The translations under genes were made by a program, and so were the position numbers. The notes below the pieces were generated by a model, which saw only the letters and a program-made list of their open reading frames with translations, was not told where the DNA came from and did not search any database. Shown piece by piece: positions 2,020 to 30,933 of a DNA stretch of 32,869 nt (positions are counted from its first letter, which is position 1; every line of letters begins with the position of its first letter). Location: positions 1 through 32,869 of the forward strand of contig JACZJL010000039.1 in assembly GCA_014860585.1 (NCBI GenBank), written 5' to 3'. This DNA is from Bacteroidales bacterium (GTDB lineage Bacteria > Bacteroidota > Bacteroidia > Bacteroidales > 4484-276).

Positions 2020-2793
2020 ATGAAAGTCTTAATACTTGCAGGAGGAATGGGAACTCGATTATCTGAAGAAACCATTCTAAAACCAAAACCTATGGTTGAA
2101 ATTGGTGGGAAACCCATTCTATGGCATATTATGAAATCATACTCATTTTATGGATTCAATGAATTTATTATACTCTGTGGTTACAAAGGCTATATGATTA
2201 AAGAATACTTTGCAAATTATTTTCTGCATATGGCTGATTTTACGATTGATATGGCTAATAACAGCATTACAAATCATAATTGCTATGCTGAGCCATGGAA
2301 GGTTACGCTGATTGATACTGGGCTTGAAACCATGACAGGCAGTAGAATCAAAAAGGTGAGGGCTTACATAGGGAATGAACCTTTCTTGCTTACTTACGGA
2401 GATGGGGTGTCTGATGTGAATATCAATGTGTTGATAAAATACCACAAAGAGCATGGGAAAGCGATAACCATAACCTCTGTACAACCTGAAGGGCGATATG
2501 GATCATTAGTAGTAAATCAGGAAAATAGAGTTTTGTCGTTTCAAGAAAAGCCAAAAGGAGATGGCGCTTGGGTTAATGCCGGTTTTTTCGTTTGTCAACC
2601 TGAAGTGTTTGATTACATACCTGATGGTGAAACGATAATTTTTGAAAGAGAACCCTTGGAAGGACTTGCAAAAGACGGAGAACTTTTTACCTACAAACAT
2701 GAAGGCTTTTGGAAACCAATGGATACCCAACGTGATAAAGGTCAGTTAGAGATATTAATTGAAAAAAATAAAGCGCCATGGATAAAATGGTAA
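2020..2793 (+). CDS. rfbF: Glucose-1-phosphate cytidylyltransferase
   Basis: Cytosolic enzyme that makes CDP-D-glucose from CTP and glucose 1-phosphate, the first committed step to CDP-3,6-dideoxyhexoses. The 257 residues match the length of the classical Salmonella RfbF. Visible motifs are the nucleotidyltransferase signature GGMGTRLSEET (residues 8-18), the activation-loop segment KPKPMVEIGGKPILWH (21-36), the metal-binding TYGDGVSD, and the conserved tail around EGFWKPMDTQRDK. The start is the first ATG after the repeat-rich leader, with no Shine-Dalgarno, as is normal for Bacteroidota. It overlaps rfbG by 16 nt, which suggests coupled translation. It is the first gene of the apparent operon. 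Confidence 0.96.
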   Translation: MKVLILAGGMGTRLSEETILKPKPMVEIGGKPILWHIMKSYSFYGFNEFIILCGYKGYMIKEYFANYFLHMADFTIDMANNSITNHNCYAEPWKVTLIDTGLETMTGSRIKKVRAYIGNEPFLLTYGDGVSDVNINVLIKYHKEHGKAITITSVQPEGRYGSLVVNQENRVLSFQEKPKGDGAWVNAGFFVCQPEVFDYIPDGETIIFEREPLEGLAKDGELFTYKHEGFWKPMDTQRDKGQLEILIEKNKAPWIKW

Positions 2794-3872
2794 AGGAAAA
2801 CATTTTCAGCGAAAGTTTTCTTGGACGCAAGGTTCTGATAACAGGACATACTGGTTTTAAAGGTTCTTGGCTTGCACTTCTATTGGATAAATTTGGTGCA
2901 AAGGTTTATGGATATGCGCTTGAGCCTCCAACAAATCCAAATTTATTTGAAGCAGCACGAATTAATGAGTTAATAACTTCTTACATTGCTGATATTCGCG
3001 ATTTTAAAAAATTGAACGATGTAATTAAGGAGGTCAACCCCGATCTAATTTTCCACATGGCTGCACAGGCTATTGTCAGGGAGTCTTATAAGAATCCTGT
3101 GGACACCTATTCTACTAATGTAATGGGTACAGTAAACCTCTTTGAAGCAATAAGGCAGAATCCAGGAAAAAGAGTTGTTATTAATGTGACTACTGATAAA
3201 TGTTATGAAAACCGCGAATGGTACTGGGGTTATCGCGAAAATGAACCATTGGGTGGGTATGATCCATACTCTAACAGTAAAGGATGTTCCGAATTAGTAA
3301 CATCATCTTTTAGAAACTCTTTTTTTAATCAGCATGATTTTGATAAACATGGTGTGGCACTGGCTTCAGCACGTGCAGGAAATGTTATTGGAGGCGGTGA
3401 CTGGGCGCCGGATCGGCTTATTCCTGATTTTATCAAAGCAATAAGCAGTGGCGAAAAATTGCTCATCAGAAGCCCTTACGCAATAAGACCATGGCAACAT
3501 GTGCTGGAACCTCTTACAGGGTACATGACATTAGCAGTAAAATTACTAGCTGATGGTCCAGCCTTTTCACAGGCATACAATTTTGGACCTGAGGATGCTG
3601 AGGCCAGAAATGTGGAATGGATCAGTAAAACTTTATGTGAATTATGGGGTGAAGGAGCGGAATATTCTATTGATTCCAATCCACAACCGCATGAAGCTAA
3701 ATACCTGAGGTTAGACTGTTCAAAAGCAAAAGCAGAGCTGGGCTGGGCACCTAAATGGAATGTCTATCAGGCGCTCCAAAGTATCGTTGAATGGAATAAA
3801 GCCTGGTTGCATAAAAAAGATGTGAGAAATGTTTGTTATCAACAAATTGAAAACTATTTAAAATTGCTGTAA
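2778..3872 (+). CDS. rfbG: CDP-glucose 4,6-dehydratase
   Basis: NAD-dependent short-chain dehydrogenase/reductase that turns CDP-glucose into CDP-4-keto-6-deoxyglucose. The Rossmann motif GHTGFKGS sits at residues 23-30 (G23-x2-G26-x2-G29). The catalytic region is clear: VTTDKCYENREWYWGYRE followed by the YSNSK (Y-x3-K) motif. RAGNVIGGGDW and the later RPWQHVLEPL are typical of this subfamily rather than of dTDP-glucose dehydratases. Length (364) is normal. The start at 2778 overlaps rfbF by 16 nt; a second ATG three codons on (2787) is also possible. rfbH follows after 3 nt. Confidence 0.96.
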   Translation: MDKMVKENIFSESFLGRKVLITGHTGFKGSWLALLLDKFGAKVYGYALEPPTNPNLFEAARINELITSYIADIRDFKKLNDVIKEVNPDLIFHMAAQAIVRESYKNPVDTYSTNVMGTVNLFEAIRQNPGKRVVINVTTDKCYENREWYWGYRENEPLGGYDPYSNSKGCSELVTSSFRNSFFNQHDFDKHGVALASARAGNVIGGGDWAPDRLIPDFIKAISSGEKLLIRSPYAIRPWQHVLEPLTGYMTLAVKLLADGPAFSQAYNFGPEDAEARNVEWISKTLCELWGEGAEYSIDSNPQPHEAKYLRLDCSKAKAELGWAPKWNVYQALQSIVEWNKAWLHKKDVRNVCYQQIENYLKLL

Positions 3873-3875
3873 ATC

Positions 3876-5189
3876 ATGAATGGACATCTTTTACTCCGTA
3901 ATGAAATCATTCAAAAAACAAAAGAATATTACAAAGCGCGTTTTGCAACTCAGGAATACACTCCGGGAAAAACACGCGTAAATTACGCCGGTCGTGTATT
4001 TAATGAAGATGAACTAGTAAATGCTATAGAAGCATCGCTGGACTTCTGGCTTACTGAAGGCCGTTTCTCTGAAGAATTTGCAGAAAAAATTTCCGACTTT
4101 TTAGGCATAGAACATGTGCTGTTGACCAATTCAGGTTCTTCAGCCAATTTACTTGCTTTTGCAGCATTAACATCCGAAAAACTTGGTGAGAAACGCCTAA
4201 AGCCCGGAGATGAAGTGATTTCAGTTGCTGCAGGTTTTCCCGCTACAGTAACTCCAATAATCCAATATGGACTTGTACCGGTTTTTGTTGATATCACAAT
4301 ACCTACGTACAATATTGATGTGGAAATGATGCGCAAAGCCATTACTCCGAAAACAAGATGTATTTTTATCGCTCACACGCTTGGCAATCCCTTTGATCTT
4401 GACGAAGTGATGCAATTGGCAAAAGAACACGACCTATGGGTTATAGAGGATAATTGTGATGCCTTTGGCAGCAAATACAAGGAAAAGAAAACCGGAACAT
4501 TCGGCCATTTATCAACTATTTCATTTTATCCGGCACACCACATTACTACAGGCGAAGGTGGTGCAATATGCACCAACAACCCTCATTTGGCAAACTTAGT
4601 TCGTGCTTTCCGCGACTGGGGTCGTGATTGCTATTGTGCAGGAGGGGAGAATAATACATGTGGAAAACGATTCAGTCAGCAATTTGGAAATTTGCCTTTT
4701 GGATATGATCATAAATATGTTTATTCTGAAGTTGGATACAATCTGAAAATGACAGACATTCAGGCTGCAATTGGCTCTGCTCAAATGGAAAAACTGGACT
4801 TTTTTGTAGAAGCCAGAAAGAAAAACTATCGTTCATGGCTTGAGATATTCTCTAAATATCCAAAATACTTCACATTGCCTGAAGCTACCCAAAATGCTGA
4901 TCCATCATGGTTTGCATTCATTGTAACGCTGAAGGATAATGTAACTTTTAAAAGAGATGAAATAACTTTTTTCCTAAACAACAATTTGATTGAAACCCGC
5001 AATCTTTTCGCGGGTAATATGATAAAACAACCTGGTTTCGTTGGCCGTAATTGGCGAGTTGCTGATCATCTCAATAATACCGACTACATTATGAATAATA
5101 CCTTTTTTCTGGGTACATATCCGGGTATAACTGAACCAATGTTCAGTTATGCCGAAGAGAAAATAGCCGAATTTATTAAAGCGTACTAG
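3876..5189 (+). CDS. rfbH: CDP-4-keto-6-deoxyglucose 3-dehydratase (E1)
   Basis: PMP-dependent, [2Fe-2S] enzyme that starts removal of the C3 hydroxyl to give the 3,6-dideoxy sugar. It has the aminotransferase fold, but the PLP-binding lysine is replaced by histidine in FYPAHHITTGEGG (H221 aligns with the Lys of aminotransferases), the hallmark of E1. The iron-sulfur cysteines match the known C-x57-C-x1-C-x7-C pattern exactly: C194, C252, C254 and C262. The length of 437 is typical of RfbH. These features together suggest a fully active enzyme. It needs electrons from an E3 reductase, and the next gene encodes a candidate. Confidence 0.96.
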   Translation: MNGHLLLRNEIIQKTKEYYKARFATQEYTPGKTRVNYAGRVFNEDELVNAIEASLDFWLTEGRFSEEFAEKISDFLGIEHVLLTNSGSSANLLAFAALTSEKLGEKRLKPGDEVISVAAGFPATVTPIIQYGLVPVFVDITIPTYNIDVEMMRKAITPKTRCIFIAHTLGNPFDLDEVMQLAKEHDLWVIEDNCDAFGSKYKEKKTGTFGHLSTISFYPAHHITTGEGGAICTNNPHLANLVRAFRDWGRDCYCAGGENNTCGKRFSQQFGNLPFGYDHKYVYSEVGYNLKMTDIQAAIGSAQMEKLDFFVEARKKNYRSWLEIFSKYPKYFTLPEATQNADPSWFAFIVTLKDNVTFKRDEITFFLNNNLIETRNLFAGNMIKQPGFVGRNWRVADHLNNTDYIMNNTFFLGTYPGITEPMFSYAEEKIAEFIKAY

Positions 5190-5194
5190 TCAAA

Positions 5195-5872
5195 ATGGCT
5201 GTCATTAAAAAGTATACTGCTGAGGTAGTGTCTGTTAAATCGGAAATAGCCGATGTATATACTGTGGAATTTTGTTCCAAAGGGAAACCCTTTAAATACG
5301 CACCGGGGCAATTTCTTCATCTTGCCCTTGATCAATACGATCCAAGTATGCAATGGCCTGAATCTCGCTGTTTTAGTATGCAATCGGCACCCGATGAAGA
5401 ATTCATAAGAATTACTTATGCAGTAAAAGGAAGCTTTACTCATAGGATGAAAGAAGAATTATCAGACGGGAAAATTGTCACACTCAAACTGCCTTACGGC
5501 GATTTGTTTACCCAACCTCATAGAAAAGAAAAAGTTGTTTTCATTGCCGGAGGCACGGGCATTACCCCATTCTTATCACTTTTTAATCATTTCTCGTTCA
5601 AGGAATATGTAAATCCTAGTATTTACATGGGCTTCCGCCGAAAGGCCTTTGACATATACGCTACTGAATTAAAACATGTTGAGCAGTTCATTCAATCAGT
5701 TTCCTATGAGGATTACAATGGTATGTTGGATATTAAATCTATTTTTCAAGCAAATGGGGTTGATAGTACATATTTTTTATCAGGCCCTCCTCAAATGATT
5801 AAACACTTTCGACAATACTTGATTATTAATAACGTGATGGAAAATCATGTCCTTACGGATGAATGGGAGTAG
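5195..5872 (+). CDS. FAD/NAD(P)H oxidoreductase, E3-like, lacking a ferredoxin domain
   Basis: Member of the ferredoxin-NADP+ reductase superfamily, placed directly after rfbH. It probably passes electrons from NAD(P)H to E1 for C3 deoxygenation. The FAD-binding motif RCFSMQSAP (58-66, the RxYS type) and the NAD-binding GGTGITPF (119-126) are clear, and the C-terminus has FLSGPPQM. Classical E3 (AscD/RfbI type) is about 330 residues with an N-terminal plant-type [2Fe-2S] domain. This protein is 225 residues, has no CxxxxCxxC cluster and starts directly with the flavin domain. Electrons may therefore reach the E1 cluster directly or through a separate ferredoxin. The start follows the rfbH stop by 5 nt. 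Confidence 0.85.
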   Translation: MAVIKKYTAEVVSVKSEIADVYTVEFCSKGKPFKYAPGQFLHLALDQYDPSMQWPESRCFSMQSAPDEEFIRITYAVKGSFTHRMKEELSDGKIVTLKLPYGDLFTQPHRKEKVVFIAGGTGITPFLSLFNHFSFKEYVNPSIYMGFRRKAFDIYATELKHVEQFIQSVSYEDYNGMLDIKSIFQANGVDSTYFLSGPPQMIKHFRQYLIINNVMENHVLTDEWE

Positions 5873-5917
5873 GTAAACGGGATTAAAAAAGGAACTTTAA
5901 ACTTAAAATAATTCAAA

Positions 5918-6706
5918 ATGATTTTATTTAGACACAACGATTTAGTTTTTGAACTGAGTACGCCTGAGTATGAACTTCCTGTTTTTGGTTTTAAGATAGG
6001 CGAGTTAAGATTGATTAATGCGTCAATTCCAAACACTACGAATTTTGATATCATACCCTTGTCAGGAATTATAAACTACTTTACCGAACATAATATTAGA
6101 ATTTGTACTTTTCGCGGCAAAGAAGATATCACAGTAGTAAGGGAACTCGAAAAGAGCGGATTCTTATTTGTAAGTTCTTATAATGTAGTGGAGTGTGCTA
6201 AAAATGACTTTAGACCTATAAACATAGTTTCTAAGTTTAATGTCGAGGTGGCAAAGGAAAGCGATTTTGATGAGATCCTGGCGATTGAAAAATTGGTGAA
6301 AGACTATTCAACTTTTTCTATCGATCCATTGATCAGTGACAATGCTTCATCAACAAGAAATGTAATAAGGGTTCGATCACATTTTTCGAAGAAGAATCAC
6401 CGAATTTATATTGTGAAAGTGGATTCAATTATTGCTGGGTTTATTCAATTTGTTATTGATTACGAAAACCGTATAGCACACACATTAAATGCAGCTATTA
6501 GACCAGAATATCAGGGGAATAATATTGGAAAAGTACTTTTTTCCGACTCTTTTGAAGCTGTTTTTAATGATAATTGTGATTTGATAACAAGCGATTATAG
6601 TACTCAAAATATTGGATCTGCAAGGCTGCATGAAAAGTGCAACTTTAAAATAATACGTCATGATATACATTTAAGACTTTTTTTAGAAAATATAAATTGT
6701 AAATAA
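5918..6706 (+). CDS. WecD-like GNAT N-acyltransferase
   Basis: Probable acyl-CoA-dependent N-acyltransferase acting on a nucleotide-linked amino sugar. The N-terminal half has the WecD-type opening (PVFGFKIGELR, about 21-31). The C-terminal half is a GNAT domain with the acyl-CoA-binding segment IRPEYQGNNIGKVLF and a later NIGSARLHEKCNFK. At 262 residues it is near the size of WecD relatives. It precedes an aminotransferase gene by one base, so the pair probably aminates and then acylates one sugar. The acyl group cannot be read from the sequence; acetyl is the default. Confidence 0.82.
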   Translation: MILFRHNDLVFELSTPEYELPVFGFKIGELRLINASIPNTTNFDIIPLSGIINYFTEHNIRICTFRGKEDITVVRELEKSGFLFVSSYNVVECAKNDFRPINIVSKFNVEVAKESDFDEILAIEKLVKDYSTFSIDPLISDNASSTRNVIRVRSHFSKKNHRIYIVKVDSIIAGFIQFVIDYENRIAHTLNAAIRPEYQGNNIGKVLFSDSFEAVFNDNCDLITSDYSTQNIGSARLHEKCNFKIIRHDIHLRLFLENINCK

Positions 6707-6707
6707 T

Positions 6708-7808
6708 ATGAACAATAAAATGATTTTAACTGCCGGCCCATCAATCACTCAAAAAGAGATTGACTATGTAAACGATGCCGTAAGAAACGGATGGAATGAA
6801 AATTGGGGCGATTACATTAAGAAATTTGAAAAATCATTCGCTGATTATATCGGCGTAAAACATGCACTCACCACTTCATCTTGTACCGGCGCGCTGCATC
6901 TTGCATTAGTTGCCCTGGGTGTCGGAAAGGGTGATGAGGTGATTGTCCCTGATATTTCCTGGGTGGCAACCGCAAGTGCGGTCCGATACGTAGATGCAAT
7001 CCCGGTATTTGCTGATGTATTGCCCGATTCGTGGTGTATAGATCCCAAAAGTATTGAACAGCGAATTACATCAAAAACCAAAGCTGTTATTCCGGTACAT
7101 CTTTATGGCCAGCCAGCCAACATGGCTGGGGTGATGAGAATTGCAAAAAAACACAATCTCAAGGTTGTCGAGGATGCTGCCCCTGCCATTGGTGCAGAAT
7201 TTGACCGCAAGCGAACCGGCAACTTTGGCGATATTGCCTGCTTTAGCTTCCAGGGTGCAAAACTCATGTCAACCGGCGAAGGTGGTATGATTGTGACAAA
7301 CAACTCTGAATTATTTGAAATACTAAAACACTATGCGGAACATGGAAGATCGTCAACCGGTTTCGACATCAGCGACATTGGTTTCAAATACAAGATGTCT
7401 AATATTCAGGCTGCTTTAGGTTTAGCACAATTAGAGCGTATCGGTGAATTGATTGATCGCAAAGAGCAATTATTCACCTGGTACTATAACGAGCTGAAAG
7501 ATATAGATGGATTGCTATTCAACAAAGTAAATACTGAAACCGAAAAATCGATCTATTGGATGAGTTCAATTGTGTTAAATAAGGATTTTGGAATCTCCCG
7601 GGATAAGTTAATTGAACAACTCAGAGACAATATGATAGACTCTCGCCCCTTCTTCCCCAAAATCAGTTCGTTTAGAATGTTTGAAGAGTGCAACAATCCA
7701 GTAGCTGAGCATATTTCAAAGAATGGTATTAACCTGCCAAGCGGACACGACAGAACTTATGAGGAAGTTAAATATATTTGCGATACAATCAAAAAAATAC
7801 TCTGTTGA
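6708..7808 (+). CDS. DegT/DnrJ/EryC1-family sugar aminotransferase
   Basis: PLP-dependent nucleotide-sugar aminotransferase of the perosamine-synthase-like group. The PLP lysine is K185 in FSFQGAKLMSTGEGGM, and the pyridine-binding Asp is in VVEDAAPAIGA (D156). TTSSCTGALHLAL (55-67) is the phosphate-binding region. The 366 residues are normal. Unlike RfbH it keeps the lysine, so it is a true aminotransferase. It lies between a GNAT and a YerE-like enzyme in a CDP-sugar operon. Its substrate could be CDP-4-keto-3,6-dideoxyglucose or the ketone of a YerE-type branch. An 85-bp gap with a T-rich run follows, but the stem there is too weak to call a terminator. Confidence 0.88.
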   Translation: MNNKMILTAGPSITQKEIDYVNDAVRNGWNENWGDYIKKFEKSFADYIGVKHALTTSSCTGALHLALVALGVGKGDEVIVPDISWVATASAVRYVDAIPVFADVLPDSWCIDPKSIEQRITSKTKAVIPVHLYGQPANMAGVMRIAKKHNLKVVEDAAPAIGAEFDRKRTGNFGDIACFSFQGAKLMSTGEGGMIVTNNSELFEILKHYAEHGRSSTGFDISDIGFKYKMSNIQAALGLAQLERIGELIDRKEQLFTWYYNELKDIDGLLFNKVNTETEKSIYWMSSIVLNKDFGISRDKLIEQLRDNMIDSRPFFPKISSFRMFEECNNPVAEHISKNGINLPSGHDRTYEEVKYICDTIKKILC

Positions 7809-7893
7809 TAATTAGTATGCCTGCTCTGCTAAATCATCAGCCTTTTTTTTACAATTAGACCATCGTGTTATTATACTGTTTTAAATTAAAACC

Positions 7894-9597
7894 ATGAAAG
7901 TAACAACTTTTATTGCTAATTTCTTTGCGGAAAAAAAAATAGACATTGTATTTGAATTGCAGGGCGGAATGATCACAAGGATTATTGATGAGATACACAA
8001 GCTAGGGTCAATTAAAATAGTTAGTATGCATCACGAACAGGCTGCCTCTTTTGCTGCCGATGCGTTTGCGAGAATTACAAATAAGCCTGCAGTTGCTATG
8101 GCAACAAGCGGTCCTGGCGCAACAAATTTGATTACAGGTATAGGTAGTTGCTATTTCGATTCTGTGCCTGCAATATTCATAACCGGGCAAGTAAATATCA
8201 GTGAACAAAAAGGCAACAAACCTACACGGCAAATAGGTTTTCAGGAGACAGACATAATTTCAATCGTAAAACCTATAACCAAAGCAGCCTATAAAATTGA
8301 ATCTTCCTCAGAAATTCCGGCTGTTTTTGCAGATGCTTATGATTTGTGTTTGGAAGGCAGGCCAGGCCCAGTATTGATTGATATTCCGATGGATGTTCAA
8401 AACCAAAATATAGCAGAGATGTTTTTAAATGTTCCTGTTAAGGCAGAGAAACTGCAAAACCATGAGGACATTAATATCTTTATCAAACAATTCAAACAAG
8501 CTTTGTTAAACAGCAAAAAGCCATTGTGTTTGGTTGGACGCGGTATCAGGGTTTCAGGAGCAAATGAAAAGTTATTGAAGTTTGTCGAAAGGTACAATAT
8601 ACCTTTAGTCTCTTCATTATTGGCGGTAGATGCAATACCTTACGATCATCCTTTACGAGTTGGATTTATTGGTACCTATGGCAACAGATGGGCAAATTGG
8701 GCTTTAGGCTCATGTGATCTGCTCTTGGTAATGGGTAGCAGGCTTGATTTGCGGCAGACTGGTATTGATGCTGAATCATTTAAGGCAAATAAAACGATTT
8801 TTCATATAGATATTGATAGCGCTGAGTTGAATAACAGGATTACTGATTGTGTTGTCCTGAATGAAGATCTAAAATGTTTTCTTGATGAAATGAACAGGTC
8901 AGATTTAATCAGTAATGCTCAGAATGAATGGTTAGCTGAGATAAAAGAAAGGTATGCTATGCTTCCGGATACAAATGAGTTGAAATCCATAAGGGGTATC
9001 AATCCTAATGAGTTTTTACATTTACTTTCTCAATCGTCTGGATTAGCAGGAGCATATACAACAGATGTTGGAAATAATCAGATGTGGGCTGCACAATCAA
9101 TTGAAATACAAGAAGGCCAGCACTTTTTATCCTGTGGTGGGATGGGAGCAATGGGTTACTCTCTGCCGGCTGCAATTGGAGCAGCTTTTGCGTTGCCTGC
9201 AACACCTATAGTTTCAATATCGGGTGATGGGGGGTTTCAAATTAATATTCAGGAACTACAGACAATTGTTAGAAATAACCTTCCTGTCAAAATTATCATC
9301 TTAAATAATCACTGTCTCGGCATGATCCGGCAATTTCAAGACGCCTATTTTGATAGCGTTTATCAATCAACAGTTTGGGGGTATACGGCTCCTGATTTCG
9401 TAAAAGTTGCTTCGGCTTACGGTATTGATGCTATTAGCATTAGCCAAAGTGAAGATATTGATAATGCACTTCAGTTAATGTGGAAGGAACCACTAAAGCC
9501 ATTTTTGCTGAATGTTGAAATAGACATTCACACCAATGTTTATCCCAAAATGATGTACGGCAGCCCAATTACGAAAATGGAACCTCCGGTTGAATAA
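7894..9597 (+). CDS. Thiamine-diphosphate enzyme, acetolactate-synthase-like (YerE-type candidate)
   Basis: ThDP-dependent enzyme with the three-domain layout of acetolactate synthase. The catalytic glutamate is E48 in MHHEQAASFAADAFAR. The ThDP/Mg motif is GDGGFQINIQEL (from about residue 444) with the downstream ILNNHCLGM. Length (567) fits. Catabolic or anabolic AHAS is unlikely because no small regulatory subunit or ilv gene is present. In yersiniose biosynthesis, YerE uses pyruvate to add a two-carbon acetyl group to C4 of CDP-4-keto-3,6-dideoxyglucose, exactly the product expected from the upstream genes. A YerE role is inference from family plus context. No YerF-like reductase is visible nearby. 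Confidence 0.8.
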   Translation: MKVTTFIANFFAEKKIDIVFELQGGMITRIIDEIHKLGSIKIVSMHHEQAASFAADAFARITNKPAVAMATSGPGATNLITGIGSCYFDSVPAIFITGQVNISEQKGNKPTRQIGFQETDIISIVKPITKAAYKIESSSEIPAVFADAYDLCLEGRPGPVLIDIPMDVQNQNIAEMFLNVPVKAEKLQNHEDINIFIKQFKQALLNSKKPLCLVGRGIRVSGANEKLLKFVERYNIPLVSSLLAVDAIPYDHPLRVGFIGTYGNRWANWALGSCDLLLVMGSRLDLRQTGIDAESFKANKTIFHIDIDSAELNNRITDCVVLNEDLKCFLDEMNRSDLISNAQNEWLAEIKERYAMLPDTNELKSIRGINPNEFLHLLSQSSGLAGAYTTDVGNNQMWAAQSIEIQEGQHFLSCGGMGAMGYSLPAAIGAAFALPATPIVSISGDGGFQINIQELQTIVRNNLPVKIIILNNHCLGMIRQFQDAYFDSVYQSTVWGYTAPDFVKVASAYGIDAISISQSEDIDNALQLMWKEPLKPFLLNVEIDIHTNVYPKMMYGSPITKMEPPVE

Positions 9598-13795: not shown

Positions 13796-15079
13796 ATGAA
13801 AATTATCCTACTCACTACATCCAACCCTTACAAAACAGCCGGAATAGTAGCAATGGACCTTTACAAAGGGCTCTCATCAGTGGAGGGCAATGAAGTGAAA
13901 GTGCTGGTGAAACTTTGGGATCGTTATCCTGATCAAAACATAATCCCTTTCCAAACACAAGTTGAACACTATTGGCAGAAAGCCATTTCAAAGGCAAAAC
14001 GATTAATGGGTTTATTCGGTTTGAAAAGTAAATCAATACAGACAGATCCTGATTATTCAGTGCAGGATTATGACCAAACGATTACCAACTATTCAACCAA
14101 AAGGATACTCAAAAACGCGCCTTTTACCCCCGATGCAATCATCGTGCTTTTTATGCAGAATTTTTTATCGTATAAAAATTTGCATGAGTTGAATCAATTA
14201 ACAAAGGCTCCTGTTTTTCTTTACATGATGGACATGGCTCCGATGACAGGTGGTTGTCATTATGCATGGGATTGTAAGGGATATACAGGTATGTGTGGCA
14301 AGTGCCCTGCATTGTATTCCAAGGTTGAAAATGACCAATCAAGAAAAAATTGGGAGTTTAAAAAGTATTACGTTGATAAAACTGATTTGACAATAATTGC
14401 CGGTACAGAATACCAGTTCAGACAATTAGAAAAAAGCAGTTTATTTGCTCAAAAAAGAAAAGCAAAGATATTGCTGGGTATTAATCCTGAACTTTTCAAG
14501 CCAGGCAGCCAATCAGAAGCACGCAAATTATTTGATCTTCCTTTAAAAACGAAAATCATATTCTTTGGCGCTGTAAGCGCTGGTAATAAACGCAAGGGAT
14601 TTAATGAACTTGTTAAAGCGCTGAACCTGCTAAAAACAAACAATCCTGATCTTGAACTGCATCTGGCAATTGCCGGTAACGCCAATGAGCAATTGACAAA
14701 TAATTTGCCCTATAGTTACACTTTGATTGGCTATTTGAACCATGAAAAACTCGCAAAAGCGTTTCAGGCTGCTGACCTCTTTCTTTGCCCATCAATCGAA
14801 GATTCAGGGCCTATGATGATCAACCAATCTATTATGACTGGAACTCCGGTCGTTGCATTTGAAATGGGTGTGGCGCTTGACCTGGTTATTACAGTTGAAA
14901 CCGGCTATAGAGCCAAACTAAAAGACACAGATGATATGGTAGAAGGAATACGTCAAATATTAGAATTAAATGAAAATGAATACATTACGATGAAAAGTAA
15001 ATGCAGGAATCTGGGGCTTAGGTTGTGTAGCCCAAATGCCCAATCTGTGAATTTTAATAACATAATAATGAGTATTTGA
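13796..15079 (+). CDS. Glycosyltransferase family 4 with a cysteine-rich insert
   Basis: GT-B fold glycosyltransferase of 427 residues. The N-terminal domain begins MKIILLTTSNPYKTAGIVAMD. Midway is a cysteine-rich stretch, GGCHYAWDCKGYTGMCGKCP, characteristic of a WcaC-like subset of polysaccharide GT4 enzymes. The C-terminal donor-binding domain shows FGAVSAGNKRKGFNEL and the E-x7-type segment LCPSIEDSGPMMINQSIMTGTPVVAF. It probably adds one residue of the repeat unit at the cytosolic membrane face. The gene-poor remnant region follows directly. Confidence 0.88.
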   Translation: MKIILLTTSNPYKTAGIVAMDLYKGLSSVEGNEVKVLVKLWDRYPDQNIIPFQTQVEHYWQKAISKAKRLMGLFGLKSKSIQTDPDYSVQDYDQTITNYSTKRILKNAPFTPDAIIVLFMQNFLSYKNLHELNQLTKAPVFLYMMDMAPMTGGCHYAWDCKGYTGMCGKCPALYSKVENDQSRKNWEFKKYYVDKTDLTIIAGTEYQFRQLEKSSLFAQKRKAKILLGINPELFKPGSQSEARKLFDLPLKTKIIFFGAVSAGNKRKGFNELVKALNLLKTNNPDLELHLAIAGNANEQLTNNLPYSYTLIGYLNHEKLAKAFQAADLFLCPSIEDSGPMMINQSIMTGTPVVAFEMGVALDLVITVETGYRAKLKDTDDMVEGIRQILELNENEYITMKSKCRNLGLRLCSPNAQSVNFNNIIMSI

Positions 15080-15425
15080 CACCATGCAAATTCAATTTCT
15101 TAATTGGGACACAGCCTTTATTGGCATAACAAGGAAAAAGTTGAGATAAATGAAGAATCTACTTTAAAACCTTTTCTGTTCAATAAAAGGGCTTTTGATT
15201 TCAGCTATCACTTTCATGTTTACTATTATTGTTTGAAAATAATATTTACTTGGTCAGATTACCGTAAGTGGCTATGAGAGCCTGATTGAATCTATATGGT
15301 TTCTATTCGGATTGATCATTTTTACACTTGGGGTCATTGACCTATAATTAGCAAAATTTTTGATGAAGTCAAAAATAGGCCTCCAAAATTCTTGCAAATG
15401 AGTTAAACAATTAAATAAGAAAAAT
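15080..15425 (+). pseudogene. Decayed gene remnant(s), including a WecD-like GNAT N-terminus
   Basis: No intact gene is present in these 346 bases. A 21-codon frame at 15084-15149 begins MQIQFLNWDTAFIGITRKK and then stops. Its LNWDTAFIG closely resembles the usual opening of WecD-type GNAT proteins (LxWDSxFFG). Further on, a frame ending just before 15408 reads ISKIFDEVKNRPPKFLQMS, which looks once-coding but which I cannot assign. The next gene also encodes a WecD-like GNAT with its own similar opening, so this may be the debris of a replaced or duplicated acyltransferase. Confidence 0.5.
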
Positions 15426-16541
15426 ATGCAGAAATCCTTACTTGATTCAAAACGTTTCGGATTAGATATCCACAGGGCAACTCCAAAGGAGTTCAATTTA
15501 AATGAATTGAAGAAATATATCTACAAAGAAAAGGTTGATATATTGTTTCTGAGACTAGAATCTTCAATTAAAGACAGGCATTCCGCATTAAATGCACTCG
15601 GTTTTCCATTTATTCATTGCGATACTTTGGTTTATTATGAATGTAATTTGGATAATTATCACCCAAAACAGCTAAAAAATGTACTAAAATTTGAAGAAGT
15701 AAGCTCGAGAAACATTGAACTGATAAGTAATATTGTTCAAAAAATCTTTGTTGATTACAAAAACCACTATACAACGAACTACCTCTTAGACAAGAAAAGT
15801 ATTATTGATGGATATGTGGAATGGGCAAAAAATTACGTCAGTGACAAGGGAGCAGGGAGAATTTCTTGGTTGGTCAGGAATGATAGAGGCGAATTATTAG
15901 GTTTTGCTACCTGTAGTTTTGATACAGAAAATGGGCAATGTGAAGGAATTCTTTATGGAGTCTTGCCGGAAAAAAGTGGGGGAGGCATTTATGGTGATTT
16001 GATCCGGTTTACCCAGACTTATTTCAAATCCATGGGACTTAAAAAAATGTTAGTATCTACGCAGGTTCAGAACTTTGCAGTACAGAAAGTATGGACTCGT
16101 GAAAGTTTTTATATGTCAAAAAGTTATGATACCTATCATATCAACTCATTTCTTGGGAAGAAAAAAAGTAATTATGAAACTACCATTAGAATTGAAACAT
16201 CTGAAATTGATAGATTTGGGGAATTTACAGGTGATAAAAACCCATTACATTTTGATGATATGTTCGCCAAACAAAAAGGATTCAAATCTCGAATTGTTCA
16301 TGGAATCAAATTTGAGCTTGAGCTTACGAGGATACTTGGAACTGAATGGCCAGGGGATGGTACAATAATATTAAGTAATAAAGTAGTGTTTAACAGTCCT
16401 ATTTATCCATCTTATGATTATAAGTTTTCGATTAACGCAATACATCAGAAAAGTAGTGGATTGATGGAACTCGTTACTATACTCGCTGATAATAATGATG
16501 AAATTGCTATTGTTGCTTACACAAATATTTTAAAAAGGTGA
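15426..16541 (+). CDS. GNAT acyltransferase-MaoC hydratase fusion
   Basis: A two-domain protein of 371 residues. Residues 1-240 form a WecD-like GNAT: the opening LLDSKRFGLDIHRA, and the acyl-CoA motif VLPEKSGGGIYGDLIRF (179-195). Residues 250-371 form a MaoC hotdog domain: FGEFTGDKNPLHFDDMF (264-280) with the D-x4-H hydratase pair D270 and H275, then RIVHGIKFE and the closing VVFNSPIYPSYDYKF. MaoC domains of this type hydrate enoyl-CoA to (R)-3-hydroxyacyl-CoA. The simplest reading is that one domain makes the hydroxyacyl-CoA and the other transfers it to an amino sugar. Its TGA overlaps the GTG of the WecE-like gene, tying it to that amine. The acyl identity is inference. Confidence 0.85.
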   Translation: MQKSLLDSKRFGLDIHRATPKEFNLNELKKYIYKEKVDILFLRLESSIKDRHSALNALGFPFIHCDTLVYYECNLDNYHPKQLKNVLKFEEVSSRNIELISNIVQKIFVDYKNHYTTNYLLDKKSIIDGYVEWAKNYVSDKGAGRISWLVRNDRGELLGFATCSFDTENGQCEGILYGVLPEKSGGGIYGDLIRFTQTYFKSMGLKKMLVSTQVQNFAVQKVWTRESFYMSKSYDTYHINSFLGKKKSNYETTIRIETSEIDRFGEFTGDKNPLHFDDMFAKQKGFKSRIVHGIKFELELTRILGTEWPGDGTIILSNKVVFNSPIYPSYDYKFSINAIHQKSSGLMELVTILADNNDEIAIVAYTNILKR

Positions 16542-17689
16542 TTCCCTTCAACAAACCCTATCTCACAGGCAAAGAGATGCATTACATGTATCAGGCGGTC
16601 TATTCCGGCAAAATCTCCGGAAATGGCATGTTTACGCAAAAGTGCCATCAATTTTTTGAAGAGCGTTATGGATTTAAAAAGGCACTATTAACAACTTCAT
16701 GTACCGATGCACTGGAAATGTGTGCTATACTTGCGGATATCCAACCTGGGCATGAGGTTATTGTACCTTCTTACACATTTGTTTCGACTGCGCTTGCTTT
16801 TGTCAGGCAGGGAGCAAATATTGTTTTTGCCGATAGCCGTTCAGACCATCCGGGGATTGATGAAGATAAAATTGAAGGTTTAATCACTCCAAAAACTAAG
16901 GCAATTGTTCCGGTTCATTACGCCGGTGTTGCCTGTGACATGGACAAGATTATGGAAATAGCCGGAAAGTATAACTTGTTGGTTATAGAAGATGCTGCAC
17001 AAGCTATTGAGTCATTTTACACCGGTGCTGATGGCATCAAAAGACCGCTGGGAAGCATTGGTCACATGGCAGCATTTTCGTTTCACGAAACCAAGAACAT
17101 CAATTCGGGTGAGGGCGGTTTACTGGCTATTAATGATGATAGATTTATCAAACGCTCTGAAATTATCTGGGAAAAAGGAACCAACCGCGCTGAGTTTTTC
17201 AGAGGTGAAATCAATAAGTATGGTTGGGTTGATATTGGCTCCTCTTTCTTACCTTCAGAAATTATTGCCGCATACCTTTGGGCTCAACTGGAGCATATAG
17301 ATGAAATTCAAAGAAAACGGATTGAATTGTGGGAGGGGTATTTTAACTCACTGAAAGACTGGACGGTTTCATTGGGTATTAAAGCTCCAGTAATTACGGA
17401 ATATGCAACGAATAATGCGCACATGTTTTATTTAATTTGTCGTGATGCCTTTCAAAGAGATCTCATCCTGAATTTTCTTAAAAGTAAAGGTATTTTGGCC
17501 GTATTCCATTATTTGAGTCTGCACAAATCAAAATTTTATGTTGAGAGGTACGCTGGTGATGAATTATGCAATGCTGATTCCTATTCGGAAAGATTAATCA
17601 GACTGCCTTTATACCATGGCCTGACCTTGGAAGAGCACAATTTTATTTTATCTGAGTTAAAACATTTTTCTAAAACAAACATTTACTGA
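16538..17689 (+). CDS. wecE: dTDP-4-amino-4,6-dideoxygalactose transaminase (WecE-like)
   Basis: PLP-dependent aminotransferase expected to convert dTDP-4-keto-6-deoxyglucose to dTDP-Fuc4N. The FSFHETKNINSGEGG motif (K186 binds PLP) is the specific WecE/RffA version, as are SGKISGNGMFTQKC near the start and VHYAGVACDMDKI (126-138). Length 383 is close to E. coli WecE. Translation most likely starts at GTG 16538, which overlaps the previous stop by 4 nt (GTGA); MIPFNKP at the N-terminus fits the family exactly. In E. coli, WecD acetylates the WecE product; here the partner is a GNAT-MaoC fusion. No rmlA or rmlB is in the window, so the dTDP substrate must be made elsewhere. Confidence 0.92.
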   Translation: MIPFNKPYLTGKEMHYMYQAVYSGKISGNGMFTQKCHQFFEERYGFKKALLTTSCTDALEMCAILADIQPGHEVIVPSYTFVSTALAFVRQGANIVFADSRSDHPGIDEDKIEGLITPKTKAIVPVHYAGVACDMDKIMEIAGKYNLLVIEDAAQAIESFYTGADGIKRPLGSIGHMAAFSFHETKNINSGEGGLLAINDDRFIKRSEIIWEKGTNRAEFFRGEINKYGWVDIGSSFLPSEIIAAYLWAQLEHIDEIQRKRIELWEGYFNSLKDWTVSLGIKAPVITEYATNNAHMFYLICRDAFQRDLILNFLKSKGILAVFHYLSLHKSKFYVERYAGDELCNADSYSERLIRLPLYHGLTLEEHNFILSELKHFSKTNIY

Positions 17690-27471: not shown

Positions 27472-28609
27472 ACCCGGGGTTATTGTTTTAGGCGGTCACG
27501 TACAGGCTCTGGGCATCCTTCGTATCCTCGGTAAACTGGGTTTACCCGGTATTGTCGTTGATTCAACGGCCAAGAATATTGCACGGCATTCAAGGTATTG
27601 TAACTATTTCCGGGTCGTAAAAGATGATGATTTACTTGATTTTCTGATTATGCTTGGCAAAGATGCCAACTACAGCGGCTGGCTGATCTTTCCCACCAAT
27701 GATTTCCATGTCCATTTGCTGAGCAACAATAAATCCAGGCTGGAAGAATATTTTGTTATAGCTGCGGATAGCTGGGAATCGGTCAGCCTGTTTTACAATA
27801 AGAGACTAACCTACAAACTTGCTGAAGAACTGAATATCCCGATAGCAAACACTTTTTTTCCTGACTCCATAGATGAACTGAAACTGCCCGGTATTTCTTT
27901 TCCCTGCATCATCAAACCTGCTGTGATGTTTTCGTTCTATAAACAGGTGAAACGCAAGGTGTTTTTATGCAGAACTTATGATGAACTTGTGTCCAATTAT
28001 CGGCGTGCGCTAAAGGTTATACCTGCAAGTGAGATTATTGTTCAAGAGATTATCGAAGGACCGGGGATAAACCAGTTTTCTGCCTGCTTTTTATTTCTTG
28101 ATGGTCAGAACATCCTAAGCCTTACTGTGTGCAGAATGAGACAACACCCGCTGGATTTTGGAAATGCAACCACTTATGCTGAAACTGTTGATCTGCCGGA
28201 ATTAATTGAAATGGGGGAGAAAATCCTTAAAGCTGCCGGTTATAATGGTCTTTGTGAGGTTGAGTTTAAGAAAGATGAAAGGGACGGCTTATATAAATTC
28301 CTGGAAGTGAATACAAGAACATGGAAGTGGCATACTATCGCTGAAAAGGCAGGAATTCCATTTTTGCAGCAGTATTATGAATACCTTACGCTTGGTGTAA
28401 TTCCGTCAGGTAAACGATATTTTCCATTACAGGCTTCATTCAGGCACAGTCTGACAGATTTGTATGTCCAGTTCAGAATGCTAACAGCCGGACAAAGAAA
28501 CTGGAATAGACTTAAAAAACCTGTGCAACATGCTGTTTGGGATAAAAGGGATATATTACCATGGATATATGAAAAAATATACTTTTTAAATTTGCTGAGA
28601 ACCAGATAA
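27464..28609 (+). CDS. ATP-grasp carboxylate-amine ligase-like protein
   Basis: A 381-residue ATP-grasp protein of the CarB/PylC-like type. The N-terminus is a Rossmann-like PreATP-grasp domain (GVIVLGGHVQALGILRILG, 5-23). PCIIKPAVMFSFYKQ (147-161) holds the ATP-binding lysine, IIVQEIIEGPG the hinge, and LCEVEFKKDE then FLEVNTRTWKW the metal-binding E and E-x-N. These residues are all present, so it should be active. Such proteins in polysaccharide loci are thought to attach amino acids or similar groups to sugars. It is the second ATP-grasp gene in this locus and is unrelated in its N-terminus to the first. It ends in TAATG, shared with the next start. Confidence 0.82.
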   Translation: MVKPGVIVLGGHVQALGILRILGKLGLPGIVVDSTAKNIARHSRYCNYFRVVKDDDLLDFLIMLGKDANYSGWLIFPTNDFHVHLLSNNKSRLEEYFVIAADSWESVSLFYNKRLTYKLAEELNIPIANTFFPDSIDELKLPGISFPCIIKPAVMFSFYKQVKRKVFLCRTYDELVSNYRRALKVIPASEIIVQEIIEGPGINQFSACFLFLDGQNILSLTVCRMRQHPLDFGNATTYAETVDLPELIEMGEKILKAAGYNGLCEVEFKKDERDGLYKFLEVNTRTWKWHTIAEKAGIPFLQQYYEYLTLGVIPSGKRYFPLQASFRHSLTDLYVQFRMLTAGQRNWNRLKKPVQHAVWDKRDILPWIYEKIYFLNLLRTR

Positions 28610-29682
28610 TGAAACGAATCATTTTTGATATTGGTCATCCGGCTCAGGTTCATAATTTTAAGCACCTTTACAGAGTATTGGTTAACAAAGGGTGGAAAGG
28701 TTTATTCACAACAAAAGATAAGGATGTAACTATTGCTTTATTGGAAAAGTACAACCTTCCTTACATTGTTATTGGTAAATCCGGTCAGGGTATCATAAAC
28801 AAGGTACTTGGTCTGCTGAGAGACCTGTCCAATTTTATCAAAATACTTGGTCAGTTTAAACCGGATATTATTGTTTGCAGATTCTCTATTCATTCGGTAT
28901 GGGGAGCAAAAATAAAAGGAATACCGGTTATTGGACTTGCTGATACTGAACATACAAAACTTGTTGACTGGATTACAATTCCGTTTTCCTCAGCAAAGCT
29001 GACTTCAACTTCGTATTGGAAAAATTTGGGCACCAATCATTTTAGATTCAGGGGTAACATTGAACTTTTTTATTTACACCCCAACAGATATACTCCACCT
29101 CCGGCAGCAATTCCGGAACTATCTTTAAAGCAAGGCCAGAAATATGTGTTGATAAGATTTGTATCCTGGGGTGCTCATCACGACATCGGTCAAAAAGGAT
29201 TTACGTTAGCCACAAAAATTAAAATAGTTGAATTACTTGCCCCTGACTTTAAAATATTCATTTCCTCTGAAGGGGAGTTGCCGGTCGGTATCTCACAATA
29301 TCAGGTGAAATTCTCTCCCGATAAAATTCATGATGTCCTGGCTCATGCAGCTTTGTATATTGGCGAAGGTGCATCAATGGCTTCTGAAGCTGCTGTTCTC
29401 GGTATTCCATCTGTTTACGTCAATACTTTAGATGTGGGTTATGTTTTAGATGAAGCAAAGGCAGGTCTGGTATTTAATTTCAGAGATGAGAAGGGTGTTA
29501 TAGTACAGATAAAAGAATTAATGCAGCAGAATGATCTTCAAAAGAGTTTCCGGGAGAAAAGAGCTGAATTTCTAAAGGACAAAATTGATGTAACTGCATT
29601 TCTAACTTGGTTTATAGAGGATTATCCCCACAGCAAAAGAATCCTTTTAGAAAGTCCTGATTTTTCGCAAACATTCATATAA
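28609..29682 (+). CDS. DUF354 family protein, copy 1 (GT-B-like)
   Basis: A 357-residue DUF354 protein, a family with a GT-B-like fold and no settled reaction. Typical features are the opening FDIGHPAQVHNFKHL (6-20), TTKDKDVT, FLHPNRY-type FYLHPNRYTPPP, FVSWGAHHDIGQKG and GEGASMASEAAVLGIPSVYV near the C-terminus. The ATG shares its A with the upstream stop. DNA is AT-rich like most of the locus. A related gene lies 12 nt downstream. The pair may act as successive transferases or as a heteromer; I cannot tell. Confidence 0.85.
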   Translation: MKRIIFDIGHPAQVHNFKHLYRVLVNKGWKGLFTTKDKDVTIALLEKYNLPYIVIGKSGQGIINKVLGLLRDLSNFIKILGQFKPDIIVCRFSIHSVWGAKIKGIPVIGLADTEHTKLVDWITIPFSSAKLTSTSYWKNLGTNHFRFRGNIELFYLHPNRYTPPPAAIPELSLKQGQKYVLIRFVSWGAHHDIGQKGFTLATKIKIVELLAPDFKIFISSEGELPVGISQYQVKFSPDKIHDVLAHAALYIGEGASMASEAAVLGIPSVYVNTLDVGYVLDEAKAGLVFNFRDEKGVIVQIKELMQQNDLQKSFREKRAEFLKDKIDVTAFLTWFIEDYPHSKRILLESPDFSQTFI

Positions 29683-29694
29683 CCAAATTTACTA

Positions 29695-30933
29695 ATGCGG
29701 TACCTGATCGACATCGGCCATCCCGCCCATGTGCATCTTTTCAAGCATTTTGCCCATGAGATGAGCAGCCGCGGCCACAGGGTTTTCTTTACCTGCCGCA
29801 GCAGGGAGTTTGTAACGGAGTTGCTGGAGCATGAGGGGTTTGCTTACACCTGCTTAGGCCGCAATTACACCACAACAGCAGGGAAGCTGTGGGGGCTGTT
29901 CCGGTTCACCTCGCTGCTCTTCAGGGTCAGCCGCCAGTTCAAACCCGATCTCCTCCTCAGCCACAGTTCGATGTATGCTGCCTTTACGGCTTTTTTGCTG
30001 CGCCGGCCCCACATCTCCTTCGAGGACACGTTCAACTTCGAGCAGATCAGGCTTTACCAGCCCTTCACCAAAGCCATCCTCACCGCCACCTACGACCACC
30101 CCCTAAAATCCAATAAGGTCGTCCGCTACCCCGGCTACCACGAACTCGCCTACCTCCACCCCAACCGCTTCACCCCTGATCCCTCAGTCCTCAGCGAATT
30201 ATTTTTGCAGAGCACATCGCCTAAAAATTCCCAATCGAAGCTTGAATCTGCGTCCCCCTCCGAAGAATGGGTCTGCGAGGGAGGCACGACCGAAGCAGCC
30301 TCACGCAAACTAACATTTGTCGCCCCTCCGGGGAATGACTATTGCAGCTCAATCAACGATTGTGTCTGCGATCCCGCGCAAGCGGGAGAAGCAGCCTCAA
30401 CCCCAAACAAATTCATCATCCTCCGTTTCGTCTCCTGGTCCGCCTCACATGATATCGGCCACAACGGCATGACCCTTGGAAACAAGATTGCCGCAGTAAA
30501 CTCATTCTCTGCCCACGCAAAGGTTTTTATCAGCGCTGAATCTCCCCTTCCCCCACTCCTTGAGCCTTACCGTTTCCCCCTACCACCCCACCGCATGCAC
30601 CACGCCATCGCCTTTGCATCACTCGTTTTTGGCGAAAGTGCCACCATGGCCTCCGAAGCCGCCATGCTTGGCGTCCCCGCCATCTACCTCGACAACACCG
30701 GCAGGCTTTACACCCGGGAGCAGGAAGAAAAGTACGGCCTCGTCTTCAACTACACCGAGAGCGAACAAGACCAGCAACGCGCCATCGCCAAAGGAGTGGA
30801 ACTACTTACCACCCCCGGTATCAAAGAAAAGTGGCACCAAAAAAGAGCCCGGATGCTCGGGGAGAAGATAGATGTTACTGAGTGGCTGGTGGACTTTGTG
30901 GAAGAGTTTTACAATAAAGGCCGCCCGGGATAA
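29695..30933 (+). CDS. DUF354 family protein, copy 2, with repeat-derived in-frame insert
   Basis: Paralogue of the preceding gene (YLIDIGHPAHVHLFKHF, YLHPNRFTPDP, FVSWSASHDIGHNG, GESATMASEAAMLGVPAIYL). It is 412 residues, about 55 longer than copy 1. The excess falls at about residues 172-237, between LHPNRFTPDP and LRFVSWS, and contains WVCEGGTTEAAS and CVCDPAQAGEAAS. Both peptides come from copies of a dispersed palindromic DNA repeat read in the same frame (30269-30303 and 30362-30399). The catalytic-family motifs on both sides are intact, so it may still fold with a loop insert. Codon third positions are rich in G and C, unlike copy 1, which suggests a different origin. The stop codon lies inside a direct repeat (30927). 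Confidence 0.83.
   Translation: MRYLIDIGHPAHVHLFKHFAHEMSSRGHRVFFTCRSREFVTELLEHEGFAYTCLGRNYTTTAGKLWGLFRFTSLLFRVSRQFKPDLLLSHSSMYAAFTAFLLRRPHISFEDTFNFEQIRLYQPFTKAILTATYDHPLKSNKVVRYPGYHELAYLHPNRFTPDPSVLSELFLQSTSPKNSQSKLESASPSEEWVCEGGTTEAASRKLTFVAPPGNDYCSSINDCVCDPAQAGEAASTPNKFIILRFVSWSASHDIGHNGMTLGNKIAAVNSFSAHAKVFISAESPLPPLLEPYRFPLPPHRMHHAIAFASLVFGESATMASEAAMLGVPAIYLDNTGRLYTREQEEKYGLVFNYTESEQDQQRAIAKGVELLTTPGIKEKWHQKRARMLGEKIDVTEWLVDFVEEFYNKGRPG
30269..30303. repeat. REP-like palindrome, unit 1 (within a coding sequence)
   Basis: It begins GGGTCTGCGAG and ends GAAGCAGCCTCA. The ends pair imperfectly (GG-CTGC with GCAG-CC, one bulged T). It is translated in frame as VCEGGTTEAAS. Confidence 0.85.
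30362..30399. repeat. REP-like palindrome, unit 2 (within a coding sequence)
   Basis: Same ends as unit 1 (GTGTCTGCGA and GAAGCAGCCTCA), with a distinct apical hairpin, CCCGC-GCAA-GCGGG. It is translated in the same phase, giving VCDPAQAGEAAS. Confidence 0.85.

Follow-up and report, generated by a model that had tools for sequence, protein, structure and literature searches.

A GNAT-MaoC fusion beside a wecE-family gene: a candidate self-supplying sugar N-acyltransferase

Why should an enzyme that places an acyl group on a sugar be joined to a hydratase? The question is raised by an open reading frame (ORF) in a 32,869-nucleotide stretch of DNA from a Bacteroidales bacterium (assembly GCA_014860585.1, contig JACZJL010000039.1, positions 1 to 32,869 of the forward strand), referred to below as the window. 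The ORF (15426-16541, plus strand) encodes 371 residues. Its first part (residues 1-245; 15426..16160, plus strand) resembles the acetyltransferase WecD, with a WecD-like N-terminal subdomain followed by a GNAT core. Its second part (residues 246-371 and the stop codon; 16161..16541, plus strand) is of the MaoC, or (R)-enoyl-coenzyme A (CoA) hydratase, type. The fusion overlaps a downstream gene for a WecE-family sugar 4-aminotransferase (16538..17689, plus strand, GTG start, 383 residues) by 4 nt.

The reading preferred here is that the fusion is bifunctional: a hydratase and a nucleotide-sugar N-(3-hydroxyacyl)transferase of a surface-polysaccharide cluster, working on a short acyl chain. 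Its chances are put at about even.

The fusion and its wecE cassette

Both domains are recognised when the whole ORF is compared with Pfam: Acetyltransf_1 at residues 146-225 (22.9 bits, cut-off 20.7) and MaoC_dehydratas at residues 247-335 (43.5 bits, cut-off 27). An AlphaFold2 model of the fusion, built on a 13-row alignment, has a mean predicted local distance difference test score (pLDDT) of 84.3 and a predicted template modelling score (pTM) of 0.58. The pLDDT falls below 50 at residues 112-118 and at the junction (244-247); from residue 251 on it lies between 82 and 94 as a mean per ten residues. With VIA-align, the first match of residues 1-239 is WecD (2fs5; Z 18.9, root-mean-square deviation (rmsd) 3.1, 217 residues aligned of 222, 13% identity), and that of residues 246-371 is PhaJ of A. 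caviae (1iq6; Z 18.0, rmsd 1.6, 126 residues, 22% identity). Foldseek ranks the acetyltransferase VipF first, PhaJ second and WecD fourth. An earlier note on this DNA, made from the sequence alone, had described a single protein with a WecD-like GNAT and a MaoC domain; the domain scores and both fold matches bear this out. The GNAT half is predicted to have the whole WecD architecture, including the N-terminal subdomain; other proteins share that architecture.

The four nucleotides common to the end of the fusion ORF and the GTG-started ORF are GTGA, which agrees with the overlap given in that note. The 383-residue protein scores above both curated WecE models (NF008687, 548 bits, cut-off 375; TIGR02379, 501.8 bits, cut-off 434.85), and its best PDB matches are dTDP-4-amino-4,6-dideoxygalactose transaminases (408 and 405 bits). 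By family membership it is probably WecE, and its sugar would be dTDP-Fuc4N. A dTDP-glucose 4,6-dehydratase (rmlB) is found on another contig of the genome (TIGR01181, 482 bits, cut-off 365.1). The remaining window is a surface-polysaccharide cluster, with glycosyltransferases, sugar-nucleotide enzymes, a polysaccharide deacetylase-like protein and a flippase-like protein (a weak match).

WecD (RffC; PDB 2fs5/2ft0) is the dTDP-Fuc4N acetyltransferase. The fusion is like it in its two-part fold, in its partnership with WecE and in lying beside wecE. It differs in its extra MaoC domain, in having Trp223 for a tyrosine, and in its score with the WecD family model NF008212, which at 29.7 bits is far under the cut-off of 219. 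The label "WecD orthologue" was therefore rejected. With the same model, unfused relatives beside wecE at three loci (L043, L042 and L051, described below) reach 28.9, 49.6 and 63.4 bits respectively. A profile comparison covering 226 columns links the subfamily of the fusion's GNAT, with 99.4% probability, to Tyr-type GNATs found at other wecE loci. The term "WecD-like" is weak by sequence and clear by predicted fold.

What place does a GNAT of this kind take in other genomes? A close WecE occurs in 126 of 395 genomes of the class, this one included, at 129 places. Neighbourhoods were examined at 121 of the 128 places elsewhere (120 and L043), seven being left out, and a GNAT beside wecE was counted only at a phmmer E-value of 1e-5 to the seeds. 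A WecD-like GNAT lies no more than 300 nt from wecE in 13 of the 120 loci, each time with a length of 221-248 residues; most of the sampled loci (107) have none inside that distance. When L043, L042 and the window are added, the count becomes 16 of 123, and the GNAT of the window alone is longer than 251 residues. In 12 of the 13, the gene immediately before the GNAT encodes a GT2 glycosyltransferase and lies on the same strand. Locus L081, as well as L043 and L042, is without it.

The closest GNAT is that of L043, in a genome of the same class (G328). It is 47% identical, has 251 residues, and ends where the MaoC half would begin. It is divergent from a wecE gene of 62% identity, no MaoC is present, and on its far side lies a glycosyltransferase which, by eye, resembles the one at the same place in the window (13796..15079, plus strand). 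In L042, from a Pseudorhodobacter plasmid, wecE (rffA) is followed by the GNAT. The L051 locus, from a Methylotenera metagenome-assembled genome, has a GNAT of this subfamily immediately ahead of a wecE-like gene, with no MaoC seen in the stretch. A 4-nt overlap of these two genes needs a TTG start; otherwise wecE begins a few bases after the GNAT. Gene starts were set mechanically, so that overlaps given for loci outside the window are approximate. The Methylotenera stretch (L051:870-12369) holds large repeat proteins, the GNAT, wecE and, at its end, a flagellin gene recognised by eye. It perhaps serves flagellin glycosylation with an N-acylated 4-amino sugar.

Between the upstream glycosyltransferase gene and the fusion is a spacer of 346 bases (15080-15425). 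It has no plus-strand ORF of 60 residues and contains part of a 74-residue minus-strand frame alone. Its plus strand holds a decayed C-terminal piece of a GT2 glycosyltransferase, 34 residues long (15243..15344). This piece scores 40.8 bits with the GT2 profile, where the highest-scoring of 500 dinucleotide shuffles reaches 6.6, and its translation is 73.5% identical to the C-terminal part of the L085 GT2 (E 3.7e-10, against the ORFs of wecE loci). A likely continuation in another frame lies at 15341-15403 (plus strand; 6.6 bits, not significant alone against the shuffles), and a weaker possible one at 15189-15233 (plus strand; 2.0 bits, below the best shuffle). A possible decayed start of a Tyr-type (WDxxFFG) WecD-like GNAT at 15084..15146 (plus strand; 10.3 bits, the highest of 500 shuffles being 8.6) is suggestive only. 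Perhaps an earlier, ordinary WecD-like GNAT has also decayed in the spacer.

Judged by these remains, the fusion occupies the GNAT slot of a GT2-GNAT-wecE cassette in which the GT2 gene has decayed. The strongest sign that the GNAT half performs the WecD step is this recurrent position. The position and the GT2 fossil are both new relative to the earlier note.

A hydratase half that may supply the acyl group

The catalytic pair of the MaoC half, D270 and H275, lies within the motif TGDKNPLH and aligns with the same place in PhaJ, for which passages of PMC4823750 and PMC2698920 give Asp31 and His36 as the catalytic dyad. The intact D-x4-H pair of the earlier note is thus confirmed. By spacing, L304 corresponds to Leu65 of PhaJ, and a residue at about I368 may correspond to Val130, judging from the aligned end points of the structure match. 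Passages of PMC4823750 name Leu65 and Val130 as chain-length residues and give a PhaJ substrate range of C4-C6. The MaoC half shares with PhaJ the fold, the Asp/His dyad and the leucine at a chain-length position. It differs in being joined to a GNAT, in lying in a glycan cluster, and in having charged residues after its HG motif.

Five residues of the half (D270, N272, P273, H275 and G293) are identical in all 48 other MaoC domains collected. Twelve of the 48 are viral and were picked up by a pattern demanding D, N, P and H, so the remaining 36 are the fair test of the conserved residues.

MaoC hydratases are (R)-specific by family, according to a passage of PMC2698920. The fusion would therefore imply an (R)-acid, and an (S)-acid would not be its product. 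The MaoC half is the one PF01575 match in the genome, which also has two crotonase-family matches. Hydratases of the crotonase family would give the (S)-acid.

How would the two halves work together? WecE would make a dTDP-4-amino-4,6-dideoxyhexose, which would be dTDP-Fuc4N if the enzyme acts as its family does. The MaoC half would add water at C3 of a short trans-2-enoyl-CoA, most simply crotonyl-CoA, and so give an (R)-3-hydroxyacyl-CoA. The GNAT half would then move the 3-hydroxyacyl group to the 4-amino group of the sugar before the sugar enters the glycan. Enoyl-CoA hydration is favourable in the 3-hydroxyacyl direction, and acyl transfer would pull it forward. In such a pathway the fusion would take the place of a plain WecD-like gene. 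We infer both activities, the direction of hydration, the carrier, the sugar and the acid. For the carrier, a search of the window in six frames gave no match to an acyl carrier protein (ACP), an FkbH-like protein or a ketoreductase-type short-chain dehydrogenase/reductase (SDR); the ACP queries do recognise one another. The GNAT partner and the absence of an ACP match together point to CoA.

A known system with similar parts is the anthrose operon of Bacillus anthracis, in which separate genes for an enoyl-CoA hydratase, an aminotransferase and an acyltransferase lead to a 3-hydroxyacyl-4-amino sugar. Its hydratase is crotonase-type and unfused, whereas that of the fusion is of the MaoC type.

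The pocket and the rival explanations

Several observations weigh against the bifunctional reading. The first group concerns the acyl pocket. The helix after the HG motif of the MaoC half reads GIKFELELTRILG, and its K295, E297 and E299 are seen in none of the 48 other domains. Position 295 is leucine in 40 of them, never lysine, and histidine in one. Position 297 is Ala, Gly or Ser in 45, never an acid, and Asn in one. Position 299 is hydrophobic in all 48. Small or hydrophobic residues after the HG motif form a pattern taken from these 48 domains, not a published criterion, and the fusion departs from it. By spacing, position 297 would be Ala58 of PhaJ, on the side that is assumed to face the acyl pocket. 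The branch of the fusion's MaoC domain is also very long (6.04 changes per column), and its placement in the tree is unsure. As K295, E297 and E299 are unlike the residues of all 48 others, the pocket is uncertain, and this is the main ground for doubting the substrate.

The same residues are the starting point of one rival explanation, which is considered unlikely: the MaoC half may be active on another enoyl thioester (branched, polar or ACP-bound), the sugar bearing a different 3-hydroxyacyl group and the charged helix marking a changed pocket. E297 lies on the helix face taken to line the pocket, with the dyad unchanged. Moreover, MaoC stands with ACP and FkbH-like genes at other loci of Bacteroidota, in some cases as a fusion to an SDR, so that other acids would be made there. 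The closest fold, however, is that of the short-chain enzyme PhaJ, and the window gave no ACP, FkbH-like or ketoreductase-type SDR match.

Alternatively, the MaoC half may be non-catalytic and serve in dimerisation or in holding an acyl-CoA, with the GNAT taking its acyl group from acetyl-CoA or from an acyl-CoA that is already made. Three charged residues at places where nearly all 48 other domains have small or hydrophobic ones, and the long branch, would fit such a loss. It would hardly be expected to leave D270, N272, P273, H275 and G293 in place, and the mean pLDDT of 82 to 94 per ten residues from residue 251 on also speaks against it. This explanation is improbable.

A second group of doubts concerns the GNAT half. 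The Legionella acetyltransferase VipF comes next to WecD in the structure comparison (Z 17.9). It is nearly equal to WecD, so the fold alone cannot name the GNAT substrate. In addition, Trp223 sits where WecD has its GNAT-motif tyrosine, which is taken here to be the general acid. This tryptophan is common to L043, L042 and L051, all without MaoC, and thus marks the subfamily rather than the fusion. The placement of the two halves relative to each other is likewise uncertain, given the pTM of the model.

Further doubts come from known sugars and gene clusters. E. coli O103 is the source of a Fuc3N(R3Hb) gene set, and a 3-hydroxybutanoyltransferase gene was identified there, according to a paper cited in a passage of PMC3726653. 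The O103 cluster holds rfbB, rfbA, a ketoisomerase, a GNAT and a DegT aminotransferase. The gene set with its 3-hydroxybutanoyl GNAT is said to have been described by Liu et al. in 2010, and FdhC of Acinetobacter is a 3-hydroxybutanoyl GNAT counterpart. Like the fusion, the O103 GNAT is taken to put 3-hydroxybutanoyl on a dTDP-amino sugar; the O103 sugar is a 3-amino one. Three MaoC queries gave no match in the six frames of the 49.9-kb O103 stretch, and no MaoC and no enoyl-CoA hydratase appears among the names of its 58 listed features. Sugars with 3-hydroxybutanoyl groups are therefore possible without a local hydratase, and there is no general need for one. Kinship of the fusion's GNAT to the O103 GNAT was rejected (best BLASTP E 0.42; subfamily profile 0.2 bits). 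Finally, passages of PMC8074265 and PMC3210612 state that many polysaccharides carry an (S)-3-hydroxy acid on 4-amino sugars.

The last point is rarity. The genome contains one copy of the fusion. No second full-length GNAT-MaoC fusion was found in 148 relatives, 395 genomes of the class and 344 of the order (the sets overlap, and the fusion's own genome is counted), in 296 genomes of the phylum searched with a GNAT profile, or in 72,556 plasmid records at 80% coverage. The remaining matches in the searches of relatives, class and order cover the GNAT or the MaoC part, not both. A pattern scan of the genome collection, based on the GNAT alignment, gave 75 stretches with three relatives, none of them fused; it used two short patterns and has low sensitivity. 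No relative of the fusion's GNAT was confirmed in viral contigs, and the MaoC half had no match in phage records. Among open-access titles under the chosen search words, no report of a GNAT-MaoC fusion was found. The search for the same fusion beside other sugar aminotransferases, which the earlier note had proposed, gave no second case, either among the 123 wecE loci or in the class, order, phylum and plasmid searches.

A recent chance fusion without glycan function (in-frame joining confined to a single lineage, or a misassembly) would suit the lack of a second case, the rearranged locus and the low G+C content at third codon positions of the MaoC half (0.219, the lowest of the coding stretches compared; others 0.321 to 0.372), but it is very unlikely in view of the open frame without a stop, the wecE overlap, the kept catalytic residues and an assembly that has no other MaoC match to supply a misjoin.

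MaoC genes beside acyltransferases and the meaning of the fusion

Is a MaoC gene found near acyltransferases where no fusion exists? As a usual companion of wecE it was rejected: among the 123 wecE loci, in ORFs of at least 80 residues, one other case was found (L172), about 5.5 kb off. The L172 cluster also carries an ACP, a left-handed beta-helix (LbH) acyltransferase and a DegT gene.

A scan of viral contigs for MaoC gave 30 loci, 14 of them distinct by their last 60 residues, and the neighbours were read in nine. In four of the nine (L198, L200, L201 and, by eye, L212), a hexapeptide acyltransferase overlaps the MaoC start by 14 to 25 bases. In L221 a GNAT lies directly downstream of MaoC, and in the other four no acyltransferase was recognised among the neighbours. 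A short DegT-type gene (209-217 residues) lies upstream in L198 and L212 (directly) and in L201 (one gene further); the DegT label was tested with Pfam in L198 and with NCBIfam in L201 only. The spans with DegT, hexapeptide acyltransferase and MaoC are L198:818-2351, L212:791-2351 and L201:116-2351. Eleven further contigs have a MaoC whose last 60 residues are identical to those of L201. Annotated plasmid relatives of the viral-type MaoC (Ilyobacter, Cetobacterium, Vibrio) lie in butyrate-type or polyhydroxyalkanoate operons and not in glycan loci; two further relatives lie in stretches that carry no annotation, and the neighbours of an archaeal-virus relative are mostly unnamed.

Forty MaoC neighbourhoods of Bacteroidota were drawn, non-randomly, from search hit lists. 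In six (L241, L242, L243, L249, L250 and L278) a hexapeptide acyltransferase or a DegT gene lies within about three genes; the first five showed such neighbours before or at selection, so six of 40 is no clean rate. The ORF filter missed the MaoC ORF in three of the 40 (L269, L271 and L275), and in L249 an internal stop interrupts the MaoC frame. An ACP is added in L243, L249 and L278, and an SDR and an FkbH-like gene also in L249 and L278. The stretch L249:936-5282 holds MaoC, ACP and a large FkbH-like protein, as does L278:3275-7048, in which the ACP is fused to a hexapeptide acyltransferase. The MaoC/ACP/FkbH-like loci suggest that an acyl group is built on a carrier, perhaps to be placed on a sugar.

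Another kind of joining was also seen. Four MaoC matches in frames of about 400 residues (L279, L281, L282 and L283) are all MaoC-SDR fusions, of which three adjoin an FkbH-like gene and two an ACP. Thus, these bacteria do have other fusions of MaoC, with a different partner: as here, MaoC is joined to a second enzyme, but that enzyme, part of an acyl-supply set, is an SDR and not an acyltransferase. In the viral and Bacteroidota loci with an LbH acyltransferase (L198, L200, L201, L212, L241, L242 and L250) the adjacency is alike; the genes are separate and the acyltransferase is LbH, not GNAT.

Adjacent genes for MaoC and an acyltransferase thus recur, though in a minority of loci, and the window holds such a pair in fused form, with a GNAT. 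The idea of the earlier note that a MaoC enzyme may serve a sugar acyltransferase is supported by these unfused neighbours. Its inference as a whole, with 3-hydroxybutyryl as the acid and Fuc4N as the sugar, is plausible and supported in part.

Other features of the window may be mentioned here. At 28609-30933 lie two adjacent DUF354 paralogues, of which the second seems by eye to carry an insert; a DUF354-like gene resembling them is found in L250, beside the MaoC and hexapeptide acyltransferase genes. The CDP-glucose genes rfbF, rfbG and rfbH, all three above the cut-offs of their curated models, lie at 2020-9597 together with a flavin-type reductase. Behind them come a GNAT and, both below cut-off, a LegC-like aminotransferase and an acetolactate-synthase-like thiamine pyrophosphate enzyme. 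The last enzyme is likened here to YerE of the yersiniose pathway. This region looks like a yersiniose-type pathway to a branched 3,6-dideoxy sugar, with an aminotransferase and a GNAT where a reductase is expected, and its product is perhaps a branched N-acylated amino sugar. At 118-1604 lie ORFs of 214 and 256 residues, the second with a recG-type C-terminal Pfam domain; by eye, they look like two parts of a single broken gene.

What, then, would the fusion mean? A broader view, held tentatively and at somewhat under even chances, is that it is the first self-supplying sugar N-acyltransferase. It would have arisen in the WecD-like slot of a GT2-WecD-WecE cassette, with its pocket adapted to a new acid, and would be the extreme of a wider rule in Bacteroidota and viruses, by which a glycan acyltransferase has a private MaoC. 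The routes by which glycan pathways obtain unusual acyl-CoAs are mostly guessed. If the view is true, a fused hydratase would tell from sequence alone that an (R)-3-hydroxyacyl group is made on the spot, and a MaoC gene beside a sugar acyltransferase would be a genomic marker for predicting such groups.

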